Source: Selenomonas dianae (GTDB lineage: Bacteria; Bacillota; Negativicutes; Selenomonadales; Selenomonadaceae). Taken from it: a stretch of 64,000 nucleotides of DNA. The notes below the pieces were generated by a model. It was not told the DNA's origin. It saw only the letters and a program-made list of their open reading frames with translations, and did no database searches. How positions within the stretch are numbered: the first letter of the stretch is position 1; the number at the start of each line of letters is the position of its first letter. This document shows, in pieces, positions 15,833 through 36,283 of this stretch. The stretch is taken from positions 1,602,001 to 1,666,000 of the forward strand of contig NZ_CP128650.1 of NCBI RefSeq assembly GCF_030644225.1, written 5' to 3'. A program made the translations under genes and the position numbers.

Positions 15833-15995
15833 GGGAAGCACTGATAAATTCGGCACGACCATCTTGACGCATCTTTTTCGCCCGCTTTTCGTTAGCAAAT
15901 CCTCCACATAGCCCTCGCTATGCGTCCGGTTTGCTGCCTCAATCGGACAAAAAATCTACGCCAATCCGGCATACCTCATTTTATCAGCGCTTCCC
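15833..15995 (+). repeat. TA-flanked palindromic repeat, copy 1
   Basis: 163 bp bounded by terminal inverted repeats GGGAAGCACTGATAAA / TTTATCAGCGCTTCCC and flanked on both sides by TA. The interior is itself an imperfect palindrome with AGCAAA / TTTGCT arms and a CATAG / CTATG tip. Related to copies at 21974, 24974 and 36120. Short, non-coding, with TA flanks: the profile of a miniature inverted-repeat element of the Tc1/IS630 type. That class assignment is inference; no transposase is present in the window. Confidence 0.85.
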
Positions 15996-16004
15996 TAGAA
16001 TAAA

Positions 16005-18326
16005 TCAGAACGTATACTTCGCGCCGACCATGAACGATCGCCCAAGTTCGGGGTAGGCGGCAGGTCCGTAGTAATCCGATCCAACCGTCTCATACGCTGC
16101 ATTCGTCAGATTTTCGATCGATGCATAGATCGTCATGTCCTTATGCAGTTTGTAATTGATGTTAAAATCCATAATCAGTTTGCGCGTCGAAGTGAATACC
16201 ATCGTATTCATCCCCGTATACCACGTACCGGACAGAGATGCATTGAGCCGCCTGTTGTCATAGGAAATATCAAACTTGTAGACATTCGCAGGACGCAGAT
16301 CATTGATAACCGAGTTGACATTGCCATCTGCCAAACTAAGGTCAGGGTCAAAGGTCATGCCATCCTTTGCCGAGTACCGATCATACGCATGGAAGTAATC
16401 CGCACCGACCGTCAGATGCTTATCAAATCGGTGCTGCAACGTTAAATTGAAGGACTTCTTCAGCTCATTGGCATTGACGGCACGATAGAACGACTGCGTT
16501 GGGTCACTCGGATCGAGCACGTTATAGCCGACGACCGCATTGCTCATCCACGTATAGTCATAGTGGACGGAGGCGGATGTCTTCTTCGAGAAGTCATGGC
16601 GCAGCCCCATCGTCCAGACATCCCCACGCTCATCTTTCAGATTGGCAAGTAGCTCGTTCCCATAGGGGTCTTCATACGATGAAGTATAGTCATTCGGACG
16701 CAAGGGACGATGCACGCGCGTATAGCCGAGATAGGCACTCGTCCCCTTCTCAAAGGCATACTGCATATGGAGCGACGGCGTGAACACGCCGCGTGTTTGA
16801 CCGAGGTTCTCATTCCCTCCCTCGCCATCGTTCTCAGAGGCATCCGTATAGCGCGCATAGCGGAGAGATGGAGTAATCTCGAATTTATCCGAAACAAAAA
16901 TCTTGTCCTGCAGATAACCGTTAATGGATGAACGTTCCATGCGCGACACAATACCCCTATAAAGCCTATGATTCTCAAACTTCGACCGGTCATACGTCCA
17001 TGTTGTCAGCAAGTTGTGTCTGCCGTATGCCTTGCCAAGCTGGAGCTGCATACCGTAGTTCTCCATACGGAAAAACCAATGCTTTTCACTGCGTCCGACA
17101 TAGTGCTGACGCACCCACGCATCCCATGCAGGTGTATTCGGCGAAATGTGCGGGTCACGCGCATCTCCCGCACCGAACGCTCCCCAGTAGCGCTCATGCT
17201 GATTGTAAATGCGGACAAAGCTCTCCATGCCGTTATCGCGATGGAACACATACGTCACATCATTGTTGTTCTTGTTATATGCATTGTATGCACCTGTCGC
17301 CGCCCATGTGTAGCGCAGATTGCGGAAACCCGGATTGTCCGTTTCACCTCGTTTTTTATACGTCTTCCAATCCGTAATGATACGATTCCAGTCCGTCGGG
17401 TTGAAGTATCTGTGCTCCGGTGCGGTCATCGGATAGTCGTCATCGCCCTGCATATGGTTATGAGAGAAATAAAGTGCATGATTCTTGTCAAAGTCATAGT
17501 CGACGCGAATATTGGCAGCCTGATCCTTATAGCCCGTATTCAGCCAGCGATAGGTATTCCCGCTCAGACCGTCCTTGTATTTCGCATCCCCACTCATCTC
17601 ACGGCTGAGTGAAACGAAATATTTGAGACGATTCGCATCGAGAGCTCCGGAATAGGTAAACTTATAATTATGACGATTCCACGAACCCGTCGATATATCG
17701 AGCGTTCCCTGCGGCTGCCCTTCGCCCTTGCGTGTGATGATATTGATAACGCCGCCCGTCGCATCCGAACCGTAGATGGATGCGCCCGGGCCCTTGATGA
17801 CCTCGATCTGTTCGACACCGTTCATATTGATGATCTGGTTGATGTCGAGCATCGCTTTCGTGCCGTCTTCCGTCCATGGTTGCAGTACATTGGCCGCCGA
17901 GTTGTCCACGCGGCGTCCGTCCACAAGCACAACGACACGATCATCGCCGTTGATGCTCAGAATGCTGTGCGTGTCTTCGATTCCCATCTCGCCGCCGCGG
18001 TAGCCGGGCTTACGCACGAGTACACCGGGGACTGTTTTCAGCGCATCACTGAGTTGGTTAAAATGACGCTTCTCAAGCGTCTCCCGATCAATGACATTCA
18101 CGTCGCCGCCCGTGCGGTAGTAGGACTGTTCCGTGATAACATTGCCAAACGGATCTTTGAGTTCACCTGCGACCTCGATATCCTTCGTTTCATATGAAAT
18201 TGACGAATCGGTCTCCTCGATGGATTCACGCGCAGAAATCTCCTGTGCGTGAACATTCACCCCCCCGTACAGGACAGATGACAAGAGAACGCCAAGCGCC
18301 GCACCCTCACGAATCTTCTTGCTCAT
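16005..18326 (-). CDS. TonB-dependent outer-membrane receptor (BtuB/FepA-like layout)
   Basis: 773 residues from the ATG at 18326 (AAAGGAG about 9 bases before it; a longer TTG start to 18347 is less likely). Signal peptide ending VHA, then a plug domain (GGDVNVIDRETLEKRHFNQLSDALKTVPGVLV region, GGVINIITRKGEG) and a 22-strand-type barrel with many aromatic-rich strands, ending in a C-terminal Phe after FMVGAKYTF. A likely TonB box precedes the plug. It imports a large ligand using TonB energy. It follows the riboswitch-led genes at 20593 and 18442 with a 115-base gap, so it may belong to the same cobalamin-responsive unit, but ferric siderophore is an alternative ligand. Confidence 0.88.
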   Translation of the reverse strand: MSKKIREGAALGVLLSSVLYGGVNVHAQEISARESIEETDSSISYETKDIEVAGELKDPFGNVITEQSYYRTGGDVNVIDRETLEKRHFNQLSDALKTVPGVLVRKPGYRGGEMGIEDTHSILSINGDDRVVVLVDGRRVDNSAANVLQPWTEDGTKAMLDINQIINMNGVEQIEVIKGPGASIYGSDATGGVINIITRKGEGQPQGTLDISTGSWNRHNYKFTYSGALDANRLKYFVSLSREMSGDAKYKDGLSGNTYRWLNTGYKDQAANIRVDYDFDKNHALYFSHNHMQGDDDYPMTAPEHRYFNPTDWNRIITDWKTYKKRGETDNPGFRNLRYTWAATGAYNAYNKNNNDVTYVFHRDNGMESFVRIYNQHERYWGAFGAGDARDPHISPNTPAWDAWVRQHYVGRSEKHWFFRMENYGMQLQLGKAYGRHNLLTTWTYDRSKFENHRLYRGIVSRMERSSINGYLQDKIFVSDKFEITPSLRYARYTDASENDGEGGNENLGQTRGVFTPSLHMQYAFEKGTSAYLGYTRVHRPLRPNDYTSSYEDPYGNELLANLKDERGDVWTMGLRHDFSKKTSASVHYDYTWMSNAVVGYNVLDPSDPTQSFYRAVNANELKKSFNLTLQHRFDKHLTVGADYFHAYDRYSAKDGMTFDPDLSLADGNVNSVINDLRPANVYKFDISYDNRRLNASLSGTWYTGMNTMVFTSTRKLIMDFNINYKLHKDMTIYASIENLTNAAYETVGSDYYGPAAYPELGRSFMVGAKYTF

Positions 18327-18441
18327 TTGCTGACTCTCCTTTGACAAAACACCAATGAATACATCGACACATCATCGAAACAATGTCCAAGTACAGGGAC
18401 ACTCCCGTACGCGTATTCTGTTTCTGATATGACAGTACTTC

Positions 18442-20556
18442 TTAGAAATCATACGCCAGAGACAGTACCAGACTGCGCGGACCATGCATCGAGACCGATT
18501 CCGCAACGGCATCCTGAACAACCCAATACTCTCTGTTCAGTACATTAAATACGTTGAGCCCCACGCGCAGCGCATCTCCATTCGCAAATGTATGTTTGTA
18601 CTGCGCCCCAAGATCCAGTCGCCACCATCCCGGTACATGCTTGCTGGCAAGCGGATTCATAGGTGCCTTGCTATTCGCCACCATACGTCCCGTCAGTGAC
18701 CATTCCGCATTCATCTGATATTCGGTGGAGAGTGTGAAATTCCATTTTGGAATTCCCGCAATCGTCCTACCGTCATTTTTTCCACCCTTTTGCTTGGCGT
18801 TCAGGTACATTATCCCGCCAAGGAGATTGAGTTTTGGCGTTACGTGTCCGAATACCGTCACTTGTCCCCCTTGATTTTTTTGTCGGCCGTTATAGCCATA
18901 CCGATTATTCGCATCCACATGGAGATTTTCCTGCTCCACGGAAAAAATGCTGAAGCTCCCGCCCAGACGCTTGGCATCCCATTTCACGCCAAGCTCGTAT
19001 TGCTCGGTGGTCTGTGGCGGCAGATATTCTCCCCTGTTGGCATATCGTCTGCCCACCTTTCTTCCCCTGCCGAGACTTTCCATGTAGTTGGCATACACCT
19101 TCACATGGGGGTTCAGCGCATACATCAGTCCGAAATTTGGACTATACTTGGAGCTGTCATTTTTTCCCTGTGAAACAACCTGATGACGAAGGCCGAGCAA
19201 AAAAGACCATTTGTCATCATCGGTGACGATGCGATCGACAAAACTGATTCCCTTCATGACCTTATCGTCGTCATCATCATGATACCCCCAATTCGGTGCC
19301 TTGGGCGGGATCATCTTATCAAACGAGGATTTGTCGTAAATATTCCCCTTGTAAGGAGGAAGCAGATCATCATAGTAATCCGTATCATACTCAATCCATT
19401 CCTCGCCCTCCAACCGATCCGCGCTCAGCACAATATCGTGATGCATCTGACCGGTATCGGCTTTCAGACGAACACCCCCGGCATACCCGCGAAAGGTTCT
19501 GTTCTCCCGAATCATCTCCACATAGGTTATAAAATTCCCCTTCTCATCGGTCAGCCTTGGATAGTACGCCATGATCACGGGATCCCACTCATCGGTATGA
19601 TACCCGCACTTAAAAAACAGTTCTGCCGAGGGATTGAGCTGCTGCGCCAGAGAAAACGTCACAATATCGTTGGCATGGCTGTATTCTCCCCACGAAGGCT
19701 GAAAGTTTGCATCCCCCTGCGGCGGTTTTGGCAGAGAATGACCACCCAGTCGGATTCCTGTCTGACATCCTTTGTGGCGCACCTCCCGATGTCCGACCAA
19801 AAGCTGCGCAGAAGTTTTCTCTCCCCGATAATCGACATTGACAAAAGCATTGTTTTCCTTATATTTTTCATTTCGGAATCGCGTTGCTCCATCCTCGATG
19901 CCGATATTGGCCCGAACGCCCCACTCCTTGTCCTTCCCGAAGCGTGTCCCGAGATCCAGTTCATGAGCAAAATGGCTCTTCCCGGAAAAGGTTTCCCGGA
20001 AGACGATCTTCGTCTCATCTTCCGCAACTTTCGGAACGAGATTCACGGTGCCGGCCGCACTGGCAGAGTAACTACCGATCCCGTTCACCAACGTATTTGG
20101 CCCTGAGATGATCTCCACCCTGTCCACGAAATTGGTTGGAATCGACGAAGGGGAGAGCATCCCCGGCACGCCATTGATGTAATAGTCCTGCGAACGCAGA
20201 CGATAGCCGCGAATATGCACATCATTATAGGTATTGTCGCCGTCAGAGGTCACCGTGGGATCCAACGTAAGCACCTCAAGGAGCGTATTTCCGGAGGAGC
20301 GATTCATGTCAATGGACTTTTGCGAAAGGCTCATCACATTAAACGGTACATCCATAAAGTCTGCCTTGCCAATAATGCCCAAATTGTTCTTGCGTACAAT
20401 TTGCCCGCCATGGAAAATTTCGTCCTTATAATTGCCATACACAAAAACATCCGGCAGAGAATACGAATCCTTATTCTCAGCGGCTGCGCCATATACGACC
20501 GGCAGATGGACGGACCCTGCAAGCAGAATACTGAGGAGAACGGCTCTTTTTTTCAT
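18442..20556 (-). CDS. TonB-dependent outer-membrane receptor (siderophore-receptor-like)
   Basis: 704 residues from MKKRAV at 20556, chosen for GGAAAGGA eight bases upstream; signal peptide cleaved near VYGAAAE. The plug shows MDVPFNVMSLSQKSIDM and VDRVEIISGPNTLVNGIGS, the pattern of FhuE/FcuA-type siderophore receptors, then a barrel ending LSLAYDF. It begins 36 bases after the binding protein at 20593 and shares its cobalamin riboswitch, which points to a corrinoid ligand despite the siderophore-like plug. Base composition here looks lower in G+C than the surrounding housekeeping genes, compatible with lateral acquisition. Confidence 0.87.
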   Translation of the reverse strand: MKKRAVLLSILLAGSVHLPVVYGAAAENKDSYSLPDVFVYGNYKDEIFHGGQIVRKNNLGIIGKADFMDVPFNVMSLSQKSIDMNRSSGNTLLEVLTLDPTVTSDGDNTYNDVHIRGYRLRSQDYYINGVPGMLSPSSIPTNFVDRVEIISGPNTLVNGIGSYSASAAGTVNLVPKVAEDETKIVFRETFSGKSHFAHELDLGTRFGKDKEWGVRANIGIEDGATRFRNEKYKENNAFVNVDYRGEKTSAQLLVGHREVRHKGCQTGIRLGGHSLPKPPQGDANFQPSWGEYSHANDIVTFSLAQQLNPSAELFFKCGYHTDEWDPVIMAYYPRLTDEKGNFITYVEMIRENRTFRGYAGGVRLKADTGQMHHDIVLSADRLEGEEWIEYDTDYYDDLLPPYKGNIYDKSSFDKMIPPKAPNWGYHDDDDDKVMKGISFVDRIVTDDDKWSFLLGLRHQVVSQGKNDSSKYSPNFGLMYALNPHVKVYANYMESLGRGRKVGRRYANRGEYLPPQTTEQYELGVKWDAKRLGGSFSIFSVEQENLHVDANNRYGYNGRQKNQGGQVTVFGHVTPKLNLLGGIMYLNAKQKGGKNDGRTIAGIPKWNFTLSTEYQMNAEWSLTGRMVANSKAPMNPLASKHVPGWWRLDLGAQYKHTFANGDALRVGLNVFNVLNREYWVVQDAVAESVSMHGPRSLVLSLAYDF

Positions 20557-20592
20557 GAGAATCATCCTTTCCAACATTCATGGAGATACATA

Positions 20593-21666
20593 TTATTCTA
20601 GGTTCGATATGACCTTTGAACCGCCCCCCTTGGTTTCCATATCGCATTCAATGTCCGGATACAGACCTTTTGCAAACAGGCAAAGCCCCTTTGCTGTGCG
20701 CAGCCCGGGCATATACATATACTCCACAGGAATTGGGTAGACGCGGTTTTCCCGCACGGCTTTGAGCGAACGGTATTCCGGATGATGCATCAACTGATCT
20801 GCAAAAGAAGCCGTATGCTCATCAAAATATTCCACAAAGATAACATCCGGATCTAAGACCAATAAAGTCTCCGCGTCGCGAAACTGCACATCTGTCGCCA
20901 TACGAGCACCGAGTGTGTGCAGAAAATCACCGACAAGCCAACGCGCATTATAGTTGATCACATATTTTGATGGTGAGCCTTCCAGAACGATGACACGATC
21001 CTGCCTTTTCCCCGCTGTTTGTTCCCGTATCTGCCCAATCTGAGCGGAGATGTCTGCTGCAATCGCCTCAGCTCTCTCCGGACAGCCAAACACGATACCA
21101 ACATCACGTATGTAGCGGAGTTCTTTTTCGATGGTCTGTTTCTCTCCGGTATTTGATGTCACAGGAATATAGGTAGCTACACCACGTTTGTGCCACCATT
21201 CTGTCGATCGGAGTCTCCGCTCAGAAAATGCGGATTGCCGTGCGAAAATCAGATCCGGTTCCGCGGCCAGAATCATTTCCAAACTTACTCTCTCCGGAGC
21301 AATTTCCTGTATTTTGGCAAATTCCTCCGGATACCGCTCCTGTAAATCAGTCGTATGCGGAGGCTCCATACAGGCTAATACGATGCGATCTGCCAATCCC
21401 AACGCCAAGAGGATTTCAATGTTGTTCCAATCCATCACCACAATCCGCTGCGGTTCACGCGTGATGACCAACATCTCCTGCTGTCCTCGTGAGTTATAGG
21501 TCTGCACACTGCGCACCGTCGTCTGTCTCTCCGGCAGAACATCATGAATCGGTAAAGATGTTGTTGTAAATTCACGTAAAATAAAGATCGTGCAAAATAT
21601 CACAGCGAAAAGAAAAAACAATATCCCAAGATCCGATATGTGCTTGTATCTGCGACATCGACACAT
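20593..21666 (-). CDS. Cobalamin-regulated periplasmic binding protein (BtuF-like)
   Basis: 357 residues, type III binding-protein fold with an N-terminal membrane helix (LGILFFLFAVIFCTIFIL) and no lipobox, so probably inner-membrane-anchored and facing the periplasm. Core motifs: EPQRIVVMDWNNIEILLALGLADRIV and LDPDVIFVEYFDEH. First gene behind the cobalamin riboswitch, hence the BtuF-like call; ligand specificity is not proven. The start is odd: the ribosome site AGAAGGAG is best spaced for an ATG at 21674 that reads Met-Ile-stop, and that stop (TGATG) overlaps this gene's ATG. Confidence 0.82.
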   Translation of the reverse strand: MCRCRRYKHISDLGILFFLFAVIFCTIFILREFTTTSLPIHDVLPERQTTVRSVQTYNSRGQQEMLVITREPQRIVVMDWNNIEILLALGLADRIVLACMEPPHTTDLQERYPEEFAKIQEIAPERVSLEMILAAEPDLIFARQSAFSERRLRSTEWWHKRGVATYIPVTSNTGEKQTIEKELRYIRDVGIVFGCPERAEAIAADISAQIGQIREQTAGKRQDRVIVLEGSPSKYVINYNARWLVGDFLHTLGARMATDVQFRDAETLLVLDPDVIFVEYFDEHTASFADQLMHHPEYRSLKAVRENRVYPIPVEYMYMPGLRTAKGLCLFAKGLYPDIECDMETKGGGSKVISNLE

Positions 21667-21751: not shown

Positions 21752-21784
21752 AAAAAAAGCCTTCTTGCTCTCCGGCAAAAAGGC
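21752..21784 (-). terminator. Intrinsic terminator of the cobalamin riboswitch
   Basis: Minus-strand stem GCCTTTTTGC / GCAAGAAGGC with a six-base loop, then seven T. It lies between the aptamer and the start of the binding protein at 21666, so it is the expected off-switch of the riboswitch. Confidence 0.85.
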
Positions 21785-21843
21785 ACACGAAACACACAAA
21801 GATAATCGCGCCTTCCTGTCTCTCGCAGGGACGATACAGCGTT

Positions 21844-22158
21844 CCAATCGGGCAGTTCTTCTGGCTCTGCTTCCTCGTCTTCCCCGCCTTCCCGGTTTCC
21901 CAGTGACATATTGAGGTCGACTCTGCATTACAGCTGCGGGACAGCGCAGGTCTTGCACCTGCTTCTCTATTCAGGAAACACGGATAAATTCAGCACCGCC
22001 GTCTTAGCACATCTTTTCCGCCCTGCCATCGTCAACAAATCCTCCACATAGCCCTACTATGCGTCCGGTTTGTTTCCTTGGCAGGACAAAAAATCTGTAC
22101 CAATACGACGGACTTCATTTTATCAGTGATTCCTTGAGCGCAATGCGCACCCGATTGG
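21844..22158 (-). promoter_or_regulatory. Cobalamin riboswitch, aptamer split by a palindromic repeat
   Basis: Conserved B12-box elements occur on the minus strand in order: GGTGCAAGACCTGCG, CTGTCCCGCAGCTGTAA, GTCACTGGGAAACCGGGAAGG and AGCCAGAAGAACTGCC. The P1 stem is perfect: CCAATCGGG (22150-22158) pairs with CCCGATTGG (21844-21852). Between the P2 hairpin (GGGTGCGCATTGCGC) and the AATAGAGAA strand sits a complete palindromic repeat of about 162 bp (21974-22134). Without it the aptamer would have its normal spacing. Because the inserted RNA can fold on itself, the two halves may still meet. Controls the binding protein at 20593 and the TonB receptors behind it through the terminator at 21752. 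Confidence 0.88.
21974..22134 (+). repeat. Palindromic repeat, copy 2 (inside the cobalamin aptamer)
   Basis: Same family as copies 1 and 4 and in the same orientation. Terminal repeats are more diverged (GGAAACACGGATAAA / TTTTATCAGTGATTCC) and the TA flanks have decayed to CA and a TTGA context, so this may be an older insertion. Inner arms AACAAA / TTTGTT pair, as do CATAG / CTATG at the tip. Confidence 0.82.
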
Positions 22159-22199: not shown

Positions 22200-22228
22200 A
22201 GATTATCATACTGTTAATACACTGTCAA
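22200..22228 (-). promoter_or_regulatory. Promoter of the cobalamin riboswitch transcript
   Basis: Minus-strand TTGACA (22223-22228), a 17-base spacer and TAATCT (22200-22205). Transcription would start about 35 bases before the P1 strand of the aptamer. Confidence 0.65.
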
Positions 22229-24970: not shown

Positions 24971-24973
24971 TTA

Positions 24974-25135
24974 GGAATCACTGATAAAATGAAGTCCGTC
25001 AGATTGGCGTAGATTTTTCGTCTGAACAAGGCGGAAAACCGGACGCAGAGTGCTGCTCTGTGGAGGATTTTCCGCCGAAGTGTAGGCAAAAAAGATGCGT
25101 CAAGGTGATGGTGCTGAATTTATCAGTGCTTCCTT
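24974..25135 (-). repeat. Palindromic repeat, copy 3 (reverse orientation, between tRNA genes)
   Basis: Flanked by TA on both sides (24972-24973, 25136-25137). Ends GGAATCACTGATAAA / TTTATCAGTGCTTCC. Inverted relative to copies 1, 2 and 4. The central arms differ from the other copies but still pair: GGCGGAAAA / TTTTCCGCC and CAGAG / CTCTG. Its right TA ends one base before the mature tRNA-Val(CAC). Confidence 0.85.
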
Positions 25136-34654: not shown

Positions 34655-34673
34655 AACAGAAAATTACATATTT

Positions 34674-34753
34674 CCACTAGGGGAGCGTTATTGCTGAGAG
34701 ATCTTCGGATCGACCCTTGGAACCTGTTGGGTAATGCCTGCGTAGGGAAGTGG
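34674..34753 (+). promoter_or_regulatory. TPP (THI-box) riboswitch aptamer
   Basis: P1 is CCACT / AGTGG; conserved cores are AGGGGAGCG, GCTGAGAGAT, ACCCTTGGAACCTG and GTAATGCCTGCGTAGGGAA. It senses thiamine pyrophosphate and represses thiC through the terminator downstream. Confidence 0.95.
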
Positions 34754-34768
34754 CTTTGTTTGTTGTTG

Positions 34769-36120: not shown

Positions 36121-36283
36121 GGAAGCACTGATAAATTCAGCGCCGCCATCTTGACGCATCTTTTTTGCCCGCACTGTGTCGACAAATCCTCCACATAGCT
36201 TTTGCTATGCGTCCGGTTTGTCTCCTTGTTCGGACGAAAAAATCTACGCCAATCTGGCAGACTTCATTTTATCAGCGATTCCT
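36120..36283 (+). repeat. Palindromic repeat, copy 4
   Basis: 164 bp, TA on both sides (36118-36119, 36284-36285), ends AGGAAGCACTGATAAA / TTTATCAGCGATTCCT. Inner arms GACAAA / TTTGTC and tip CATAG / CTATG. It lies between convergent thiC and uvrB; its first base completes the thiC stop codon. The remaining gap to uvrB (36286-36351) shows nothing else. Confidence 0.87.

Follow-up and report, generated by a model that had tools for sequence, protein, structure and literature searches.

A MITE-like inverted repeat splits a cobalamin riboswitch of Selenomonas dianae at the joint between P2 and the core

Peripheral helices often differ between relatives of one riboswitch class, and to our knowledge their origin is rarely visible. 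Correia, RUP and BOX elements are short, multi-copy, hairpin-forming sequences with terminal inverted repeats, some of which prefer TA for their insertion. Bacterial MITEs such as these have been reviewed (PMC10969869). The closest precedent that we found for the locus described here is the trp operon of Streptococcus pneumoniae, where, in the available portion of the report, a BOX element is placed between two T-box riboswitches (PMC3049150). In both cases a transcribed mobile repeat is present in a riboswitch leader, with regulation apparently kept in the pneumococcus and probably kept here; however, the pneumococcal BOX, as described in that portion, lies between two complete T-boxes and outside any aptamer. 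The locus studied here shares with the Rfam cobalamin riboswitch (RF00174) the core, the B12 box, P1, P2, P4, the terminator and the downstream uptake genes, but differs from it in that an entire mobile hairpin separates P2 from the core, a continuous aptamer being the usual form of the class and not an exclusion rule. Its element is short, multi-copy and hairpin-forming with terminal inverted repeats, like Correia, RUP and BOX, from which its family differs by a strand-specific pairing bias. Riboswitch and element are each of a known kind, and a mobile element inside an aptamer is without precedent found: no MITE inside a riboswitch aptamer appeared in the literature searched, by titles and abstract openings among the matches listed.

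The window analysed is a stretch of 64,000 nucleotides of the Selenomonas dianae genome (G000:C1:1602001-1666000). A cobalamin riboswitch on its minus strand forms the leader of a binding-protein gene, which is followed by two TonB-receptor genes (Table 1). The original prediction was that a self-complementary repeat interrupts a cobalamin aptamer, that a perfect 9-bp P1 forms across this repeat and that the cut is situated between P2 and the core, and all three parts of it were borne out. RF00174 matched positions 22018-21834 (minus strand) with 89.2 bits, against a gathering threshold of 31.5. The 5' strand of P1 (22158-22150, CCAATCGGG) pairs perfectly with 21852-21844, and a U.G pair (22149/21853) extends the helix to 10 bp. 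The length of the repeat, 162 bp, was also as predicted, but it spans 21973-22134 and not 21974-22134. In the RF00174 alignment, terminal bases of the repeat supply the 5' part of P1 and P2, and many of the positions do not pair, while the true 5' part of the aptamer is at 22169-22135. This calls for caution in annotation, as the standard Rfam model took the letters of the repeat as false P1/P2.

Table 1. Features of the riboswitch leader and its operon (positions in the window).
Feature	Positions	Strand	Basis
Promoter-like TTGACA - 17 nt - TAATCT	22200..22228	-	By eye, weak; absent from promoter-scan sites
P1, 5' strand (10 bp with U.G)	22149..22158	-	Sequence; both-side changes in 2/10 pairs among 15 relatives
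P2 hairpin GCGC-ATT-GCGC	22138..22148	-	Sequence; both-side changes in 1/4 pairs among relatives
Left flanking dinucleotide CA (presumed target-site copy)	22135..22136	-	Empty-site comparison
162-bp MITE-like inverted-repeat element, orientation with more stable RNA	21973..22134	-	Repeat search, folding, copy alignment
Right flanking dinucleotide GA (presumed altered target-site copy)	21971..21972	-	Empty-site comparison
Aptamer core: conserved AATAGAGAA, P4, P5, P6, B12 box	21854..21970	-	RF00174 alignment and alignment of 15 relatives
P1, 3' strand	21844..21853	-	Sequence and alignment of 15 relatives
Candidate P13 hairpin CCTG-CGAGAGA-CAGG (possible L5/L13 partner)	21815..21829	-	By eye; same letters in G004 and G005
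Intrinsic terminator, then T7	21759..21784	-	Terminator prediction
Periplasmic binding protein gene (BtuF-like)	20593..21666	-	Pfam PF01497, E 1.6e-25
TonB-dependent receptor gene	18442..20577	-	Pfam PF00593 and PF07715
TonB-dependent receptor gene	16005..18347	-	Pfam PF07715 and PF00593

Uninterrupted versions of the locus, whose existence in related genomes had been anticipated, were present in S. infelix ATCC 43532 (G004) and in G005, where the genes are 87 and 88% identical, respectively, to those of S. dianae. The joint between P2 and the core reads GCGCTCAATAGAG in G004 and GCGCTTCATAGAG in G005, and RF00174 scored these empty leaders at 113.0 and 102.0 bits. In the window it reads GCGCTCA, then the repeat, then GAATAGAG. 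Both sides of the insert match the empty orthologues up to the joint, with no aptamer base missing, and unrelated flanking sequence, which would have spoken against the prediction, did not appear. Once 164 bases are removed, the window leader differs from that of G005 at 7 aligned columns and from that of G004 at 15. An assembly error, or the chance juxtaposition of an unrelated riboswitch-like sequence, is extremely improbable, given that the genome was assembled as a single 2.39-Mb contig with a completeness of 99.87% and that the flanks of the insert recreate the G004 joint exactly. The element would have been inserted at the P2-core joint with two bases apparently duplicated and none deleted. 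In the crystallised relative 4GXY, judged by eye on the sequence given in the available part of the report, the same joint follows P2 (PMC4436661).

We built a custom covariance model from 15 intact relatives, in all of which the joint between P2 and the core is short (one has one extra base). Four of its own members scored 210-216 bits with this model and the window allele 163 bits, the latter being matched as two pieces with no single match through the insert. The missing 5' piece was matched on its own, from 22169 on, with 13 bits, compared with 8.5 bits for the next-best chance match. Across the 15 relatives, 98.2% of the named structure is paired and 20 cells show changes on both sides; none of 500 shuffles reached either value. 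The covariation score of the whole structure was 0.203 versus 0.132 in shuffled alignments (0/500), and five pairs had both sides changed versus 2.9 (14/500). The number of further pair types in these relatives (18 versus 18.3 in shuffled alignments, 418/500) gave no support.

The repeat belongs to a large family. A pattern describing the element ends (RGGAANCRCTGATAAA) matched 63 times on each strand of the S. dianae genome and 1480 times in the 14 genomes of the genus, 13 of which had at least one match; the reversed pattern, used as control, gave none. A DNA similarity search detected the element in all 14 genomes, with few matches in G002 (1) and G013 (2), and in one of 17 genomes outside the genus (E 5.7e-4). 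Three other copies are present in the window, at 15834-15994, 24973-25133 and 36121-36283. The terminal inverted repeats are imperfect and 16 bp long, and 162 bp is too short for a transposase. We checked the repeat content of all four longer stretches with element ends; in one of these (L255), no ORF was recognised by eye as a transposase. The copies that passed the length filter, 63 in all (37 of 40 stretches, the four in the window and 22 other loci), were aligned. The same dinucleotide directly flanks 36 of these 63 copies on both sides, and it is TA in 19; the window copy has CA and GA. Short, dispersed in many copies, bounded by terminal inverted repeats and devoid of a transposase gene, the element is a non-autonomous, MITE-like, TA-preferring inverted repeat.

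The family consensus folds as a long hairpin of 62 pairs. The two strands of the window copy are not equivalent, with -80.2 kcal/mol for the sense strand, which is the one transcribed here, versus -45.9 kcal/mol for the other. The sense-strand value, obtained on 161 of the 162 bases, corresponds to z = -10.7 relative to 200 dinucleotide shuffles, and the same strand folds better in 63 of 63 copies. At the 55 consensus Watson-Crick pairs, G.U variants exceed A.C variants by 126 to 25 cells (cells being copies and not events), and rare variants are nearly balanced (16 versus 13). An excess of G.U that fades among rare variants suggests, from these alignments, that pairing on a single strand was maintained in source copies, with dead copies drifting. 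With the strand bias of 63/63 and the predominance of G.U among common variants, the family seems to be maintained as a single-stranded hairpin.

The expression signals on either side of the aptamer were compared with those of the empty alleles. The candidate P13 hairpin and the terminator are conserved between the window allele and G004/G005, and the terminator, at 21784-21759, is intact as predicted. Loop pairing between L5 and L13, by eye only, amounts to 4/5. A normal promoter had also been announced upstream. A promoter-like sequence can be seen there by eye (TTGACA at 22228-22223, minus strand), but its strength is only fair and it was absent from the promoter scan, which returned other sites matching 9/12 on the 5' side of the insert, those at 22217-22189 and 22187-22160 being nearby. 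Neither a promoter nor a terminator was predicted within the element on the transcribed strand.

We then considered the fold of the interrupted leader. In the minimum free energy structure of the natural transcript, the insert forms one hairpin beside P2, with probabilities of 0.99 for P1, 0.57 for P2 and 1.00 for P4. This agrees with the original prediction of an extra helix next to an aptamer that still assembles. P1 reached 0.994 with the natural insert and a mean of 0.967 with 200 shuffled inserts; P1 thus forms with shuffled inserts too, and a requirement for self-complementarity does not follow from the calculation. For P2, the probability of 0.57 with the natural insert compares with a mean of 0.39 for shuffled inserts and 0.07 for the joined control, from which no clear answer emerges. 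These folds agree with an assembled aptamer but do not prove it. Anatomy and predicted folding both point to an assembled aptamer with the insert as a separate hairpin at its side. The element RNA would fold on itself into a long hairpin that emerges where P1, P2 and the core meet, so that this junction would have four helices in place of three. The switch probably retains B12 binding and termination of the uptake operon, as P1, the core with its B12 box, P13 and the terminator are all unaltered. As the insert is located upstream of the core, the interval between synthesis of the core and of the terminator should likewise stay unchanged. In an atomic force microscopy study of an adenosylcobalamin riboswitch, binding was reported to be abolished once the L5/L13 contact was lost (PMC9911696). 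P13 and the core are untouched by the window insert.

The element is not confined to this riboswitch. RF00174 found 114 cobalamin aptamers in the 14 genomes of the genus, and an element or a piece of it was present within about 500 bases of 16 of them. A full element is inside the aptamer in three of the 114, at two different sites: the P2-core joint of the window riboswitch, and loop L4 of two aptamers orthologous to each other (G007:C5:28071 and G003:C16:30304; the G003 riboswitch is upstream of a receptor gene, a TonB receptor by eye). The L4 of the orthologues in G008 and G012, located beside the same divergent gene, is empty (GGTATAAGCC), while that of G005 has only the two element arms joined in a hairpin of about 37 bases, which was missed by the full-element search. 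Each of the three filled alleles has TG/CG in place of the presumed TA/TA flanks, giving one extra G-C pair on the stem. The presence of the same family in L4 of an aptamer of other genomes is better evidence for tolerance than the window case, and the peripheral joints of these riboswitches seem to be permissive for a mobile hairpin. In G011 (C1:206399-206629, minus strand), a short L4 hairpin has 13 exact bases of an element end, more than its orthologues have; this may be chance or an old remnant. We also considered whether short L4 hairpins in general are element tips, but the case is weak, as most share 5-8 bases, little above shuffles.

Between G003 and G007 the L4 elements are 93.3% identical over 163 bp without gap, compared with 94.0 and 92.9% for the two parts of the aptamer, 76% for the upstream region, 78% for the leader and 74% for the gene. 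As a control, one of nine G003 element loci (the L4 locus) matched over more than 250 bp among 21 of 42 G007 element matches. G007 and G008 have aptamers that are 98.3% identical, whereas the end of the adjacent gene is 77.5% identical and the whole neighbour gene 78.8%, a pattern that indicates, by sequence comparison, a recent transfer of the regulatory leader between species. As this cassette moved between species, the L4 rates cannot be read as plain descent. The riboswitch cassettes L076 (1391-2140) and L140, from G007:C5 and G008:C37, are 96.5-98.3% identical and differ in the presence of the element. Another S. dianae cobalamin riboswitch (L012, G000:C1:28181-28532) has a copy between P1 and P13, beginning directly after the aptamer match. 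TA flanks this copy on either side, one extra base intervening on the right; in the orthologues of G004 and G008 the site is empty, with a single TA and one base of difference on the left.

Preferential insertion into riboswitches was considered and rejected. The 1480 ends correspond to roughly 740 elements, and the 114 aptamers cover 22,776 bases of about 33.8 Mb. The number of elements expected in aptamers is therefore about 0.5 if insertion is uniform and about 4 if it is intergenic only (12% assumed). Two sites fit this range, so that we claim tolerance and not targeting. Other riboswitch classes were also searched in the 14 genomes: none of the 17 TPP matches (one below cut-off, longest 127 bases) nor of the 41 molybdenum matches (longest 174 bases) is long enough for the element to fit within the match. 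Around the other S. dianae copies, 40 stretches of 563 bases had no Rfam match. In the window, a TPP riboswitch is present at 34669-34765 (plus strand), the closest element copy found being that at 36121-36283. In three genomes, molybdenum riboswitches are preceded, at a distance of at most 80 bases, by element copies (L078, 1755-1916 and 1991-2160; G008:C125:25641-26047; G006:C1:256040-256373).

Taken as a whole, we consider it probable that the element landed in the joint, folds as a separate hairpin and left a working switch; anatomy, empty sites, the repeat family and the second example in L4 are observed, and we infer the fold, the timing and the switching. That switching is retained despite the insert is a fairly probable outcome. 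Alternatively, the switch could be dead, the insert preventing closure of the aptamer or its hairpin being cut, for instance by RNase III, with the operon fixed on or attenuated. We regard this as possible but doubtful. In its favour, the element is a long hairpin, and decay is not yet expected, private changes being nearly absent from insert and aptamer; however, the core, the expression platform and the terminator bear no visible damage, and the same family is found, whole or trimmed, in L4 of another aptamer in three genomes. Without the insert, a single private state distinguishes the window aptamer among 15 aligned sequences; it is the first base, outside the helices. The insert has none among the 63 aligned copies. 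The insertion may therefore be too young for selection to show. It seems recent by this comparison, and conservation is so far silent on function; dating by private changes in the 63 copies and 15 aptamers was uninformative.

A quite different explanation is that the element adds function, its long hairpin altering folding rate, stability or dose response and being kept for it, which we judge improbable. In its favour, the L4 element is as conserved between G003 and G007 as the aptamer itself, all 11 differences are transitions, and the five that fall in consensus pairs break none of them. The remaining six, however, are at positions unpaired in the two-sequence consensus, several being mismatches in one genome, two orthologues do without the element, and the rates are confounded by cassette transfer. 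The element also has one orientation at all three sites between P1 and P13 (the window riboswitch, L4 and G000:28181), but three sites are too few for an orientation test, and a copy located after P13 (G006:1038516) is reversed.

We tentatively propose that peripheral riboswitch helices can originate from mobile hairpins: a MITE lands in a permissive joint or loop, the aptamer works, and an internal deletion leaves a stem extension. On this reading, the L4 alleles would show the process in steps, from empty (G008 and G012) through full (G003 and G007) to arms only (G005), and the window insertion would be the earliest stage. A mobile element has been observed in aptamers at two sites, intact and, in L4 of G005, trimmed, and the natural filled and empty alleles (S. 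dianae versus S. infelix, G007 versus G008) make the tolerance of a large ligand-binding RNA for a mobile hairpin, or its gain from one, testable.
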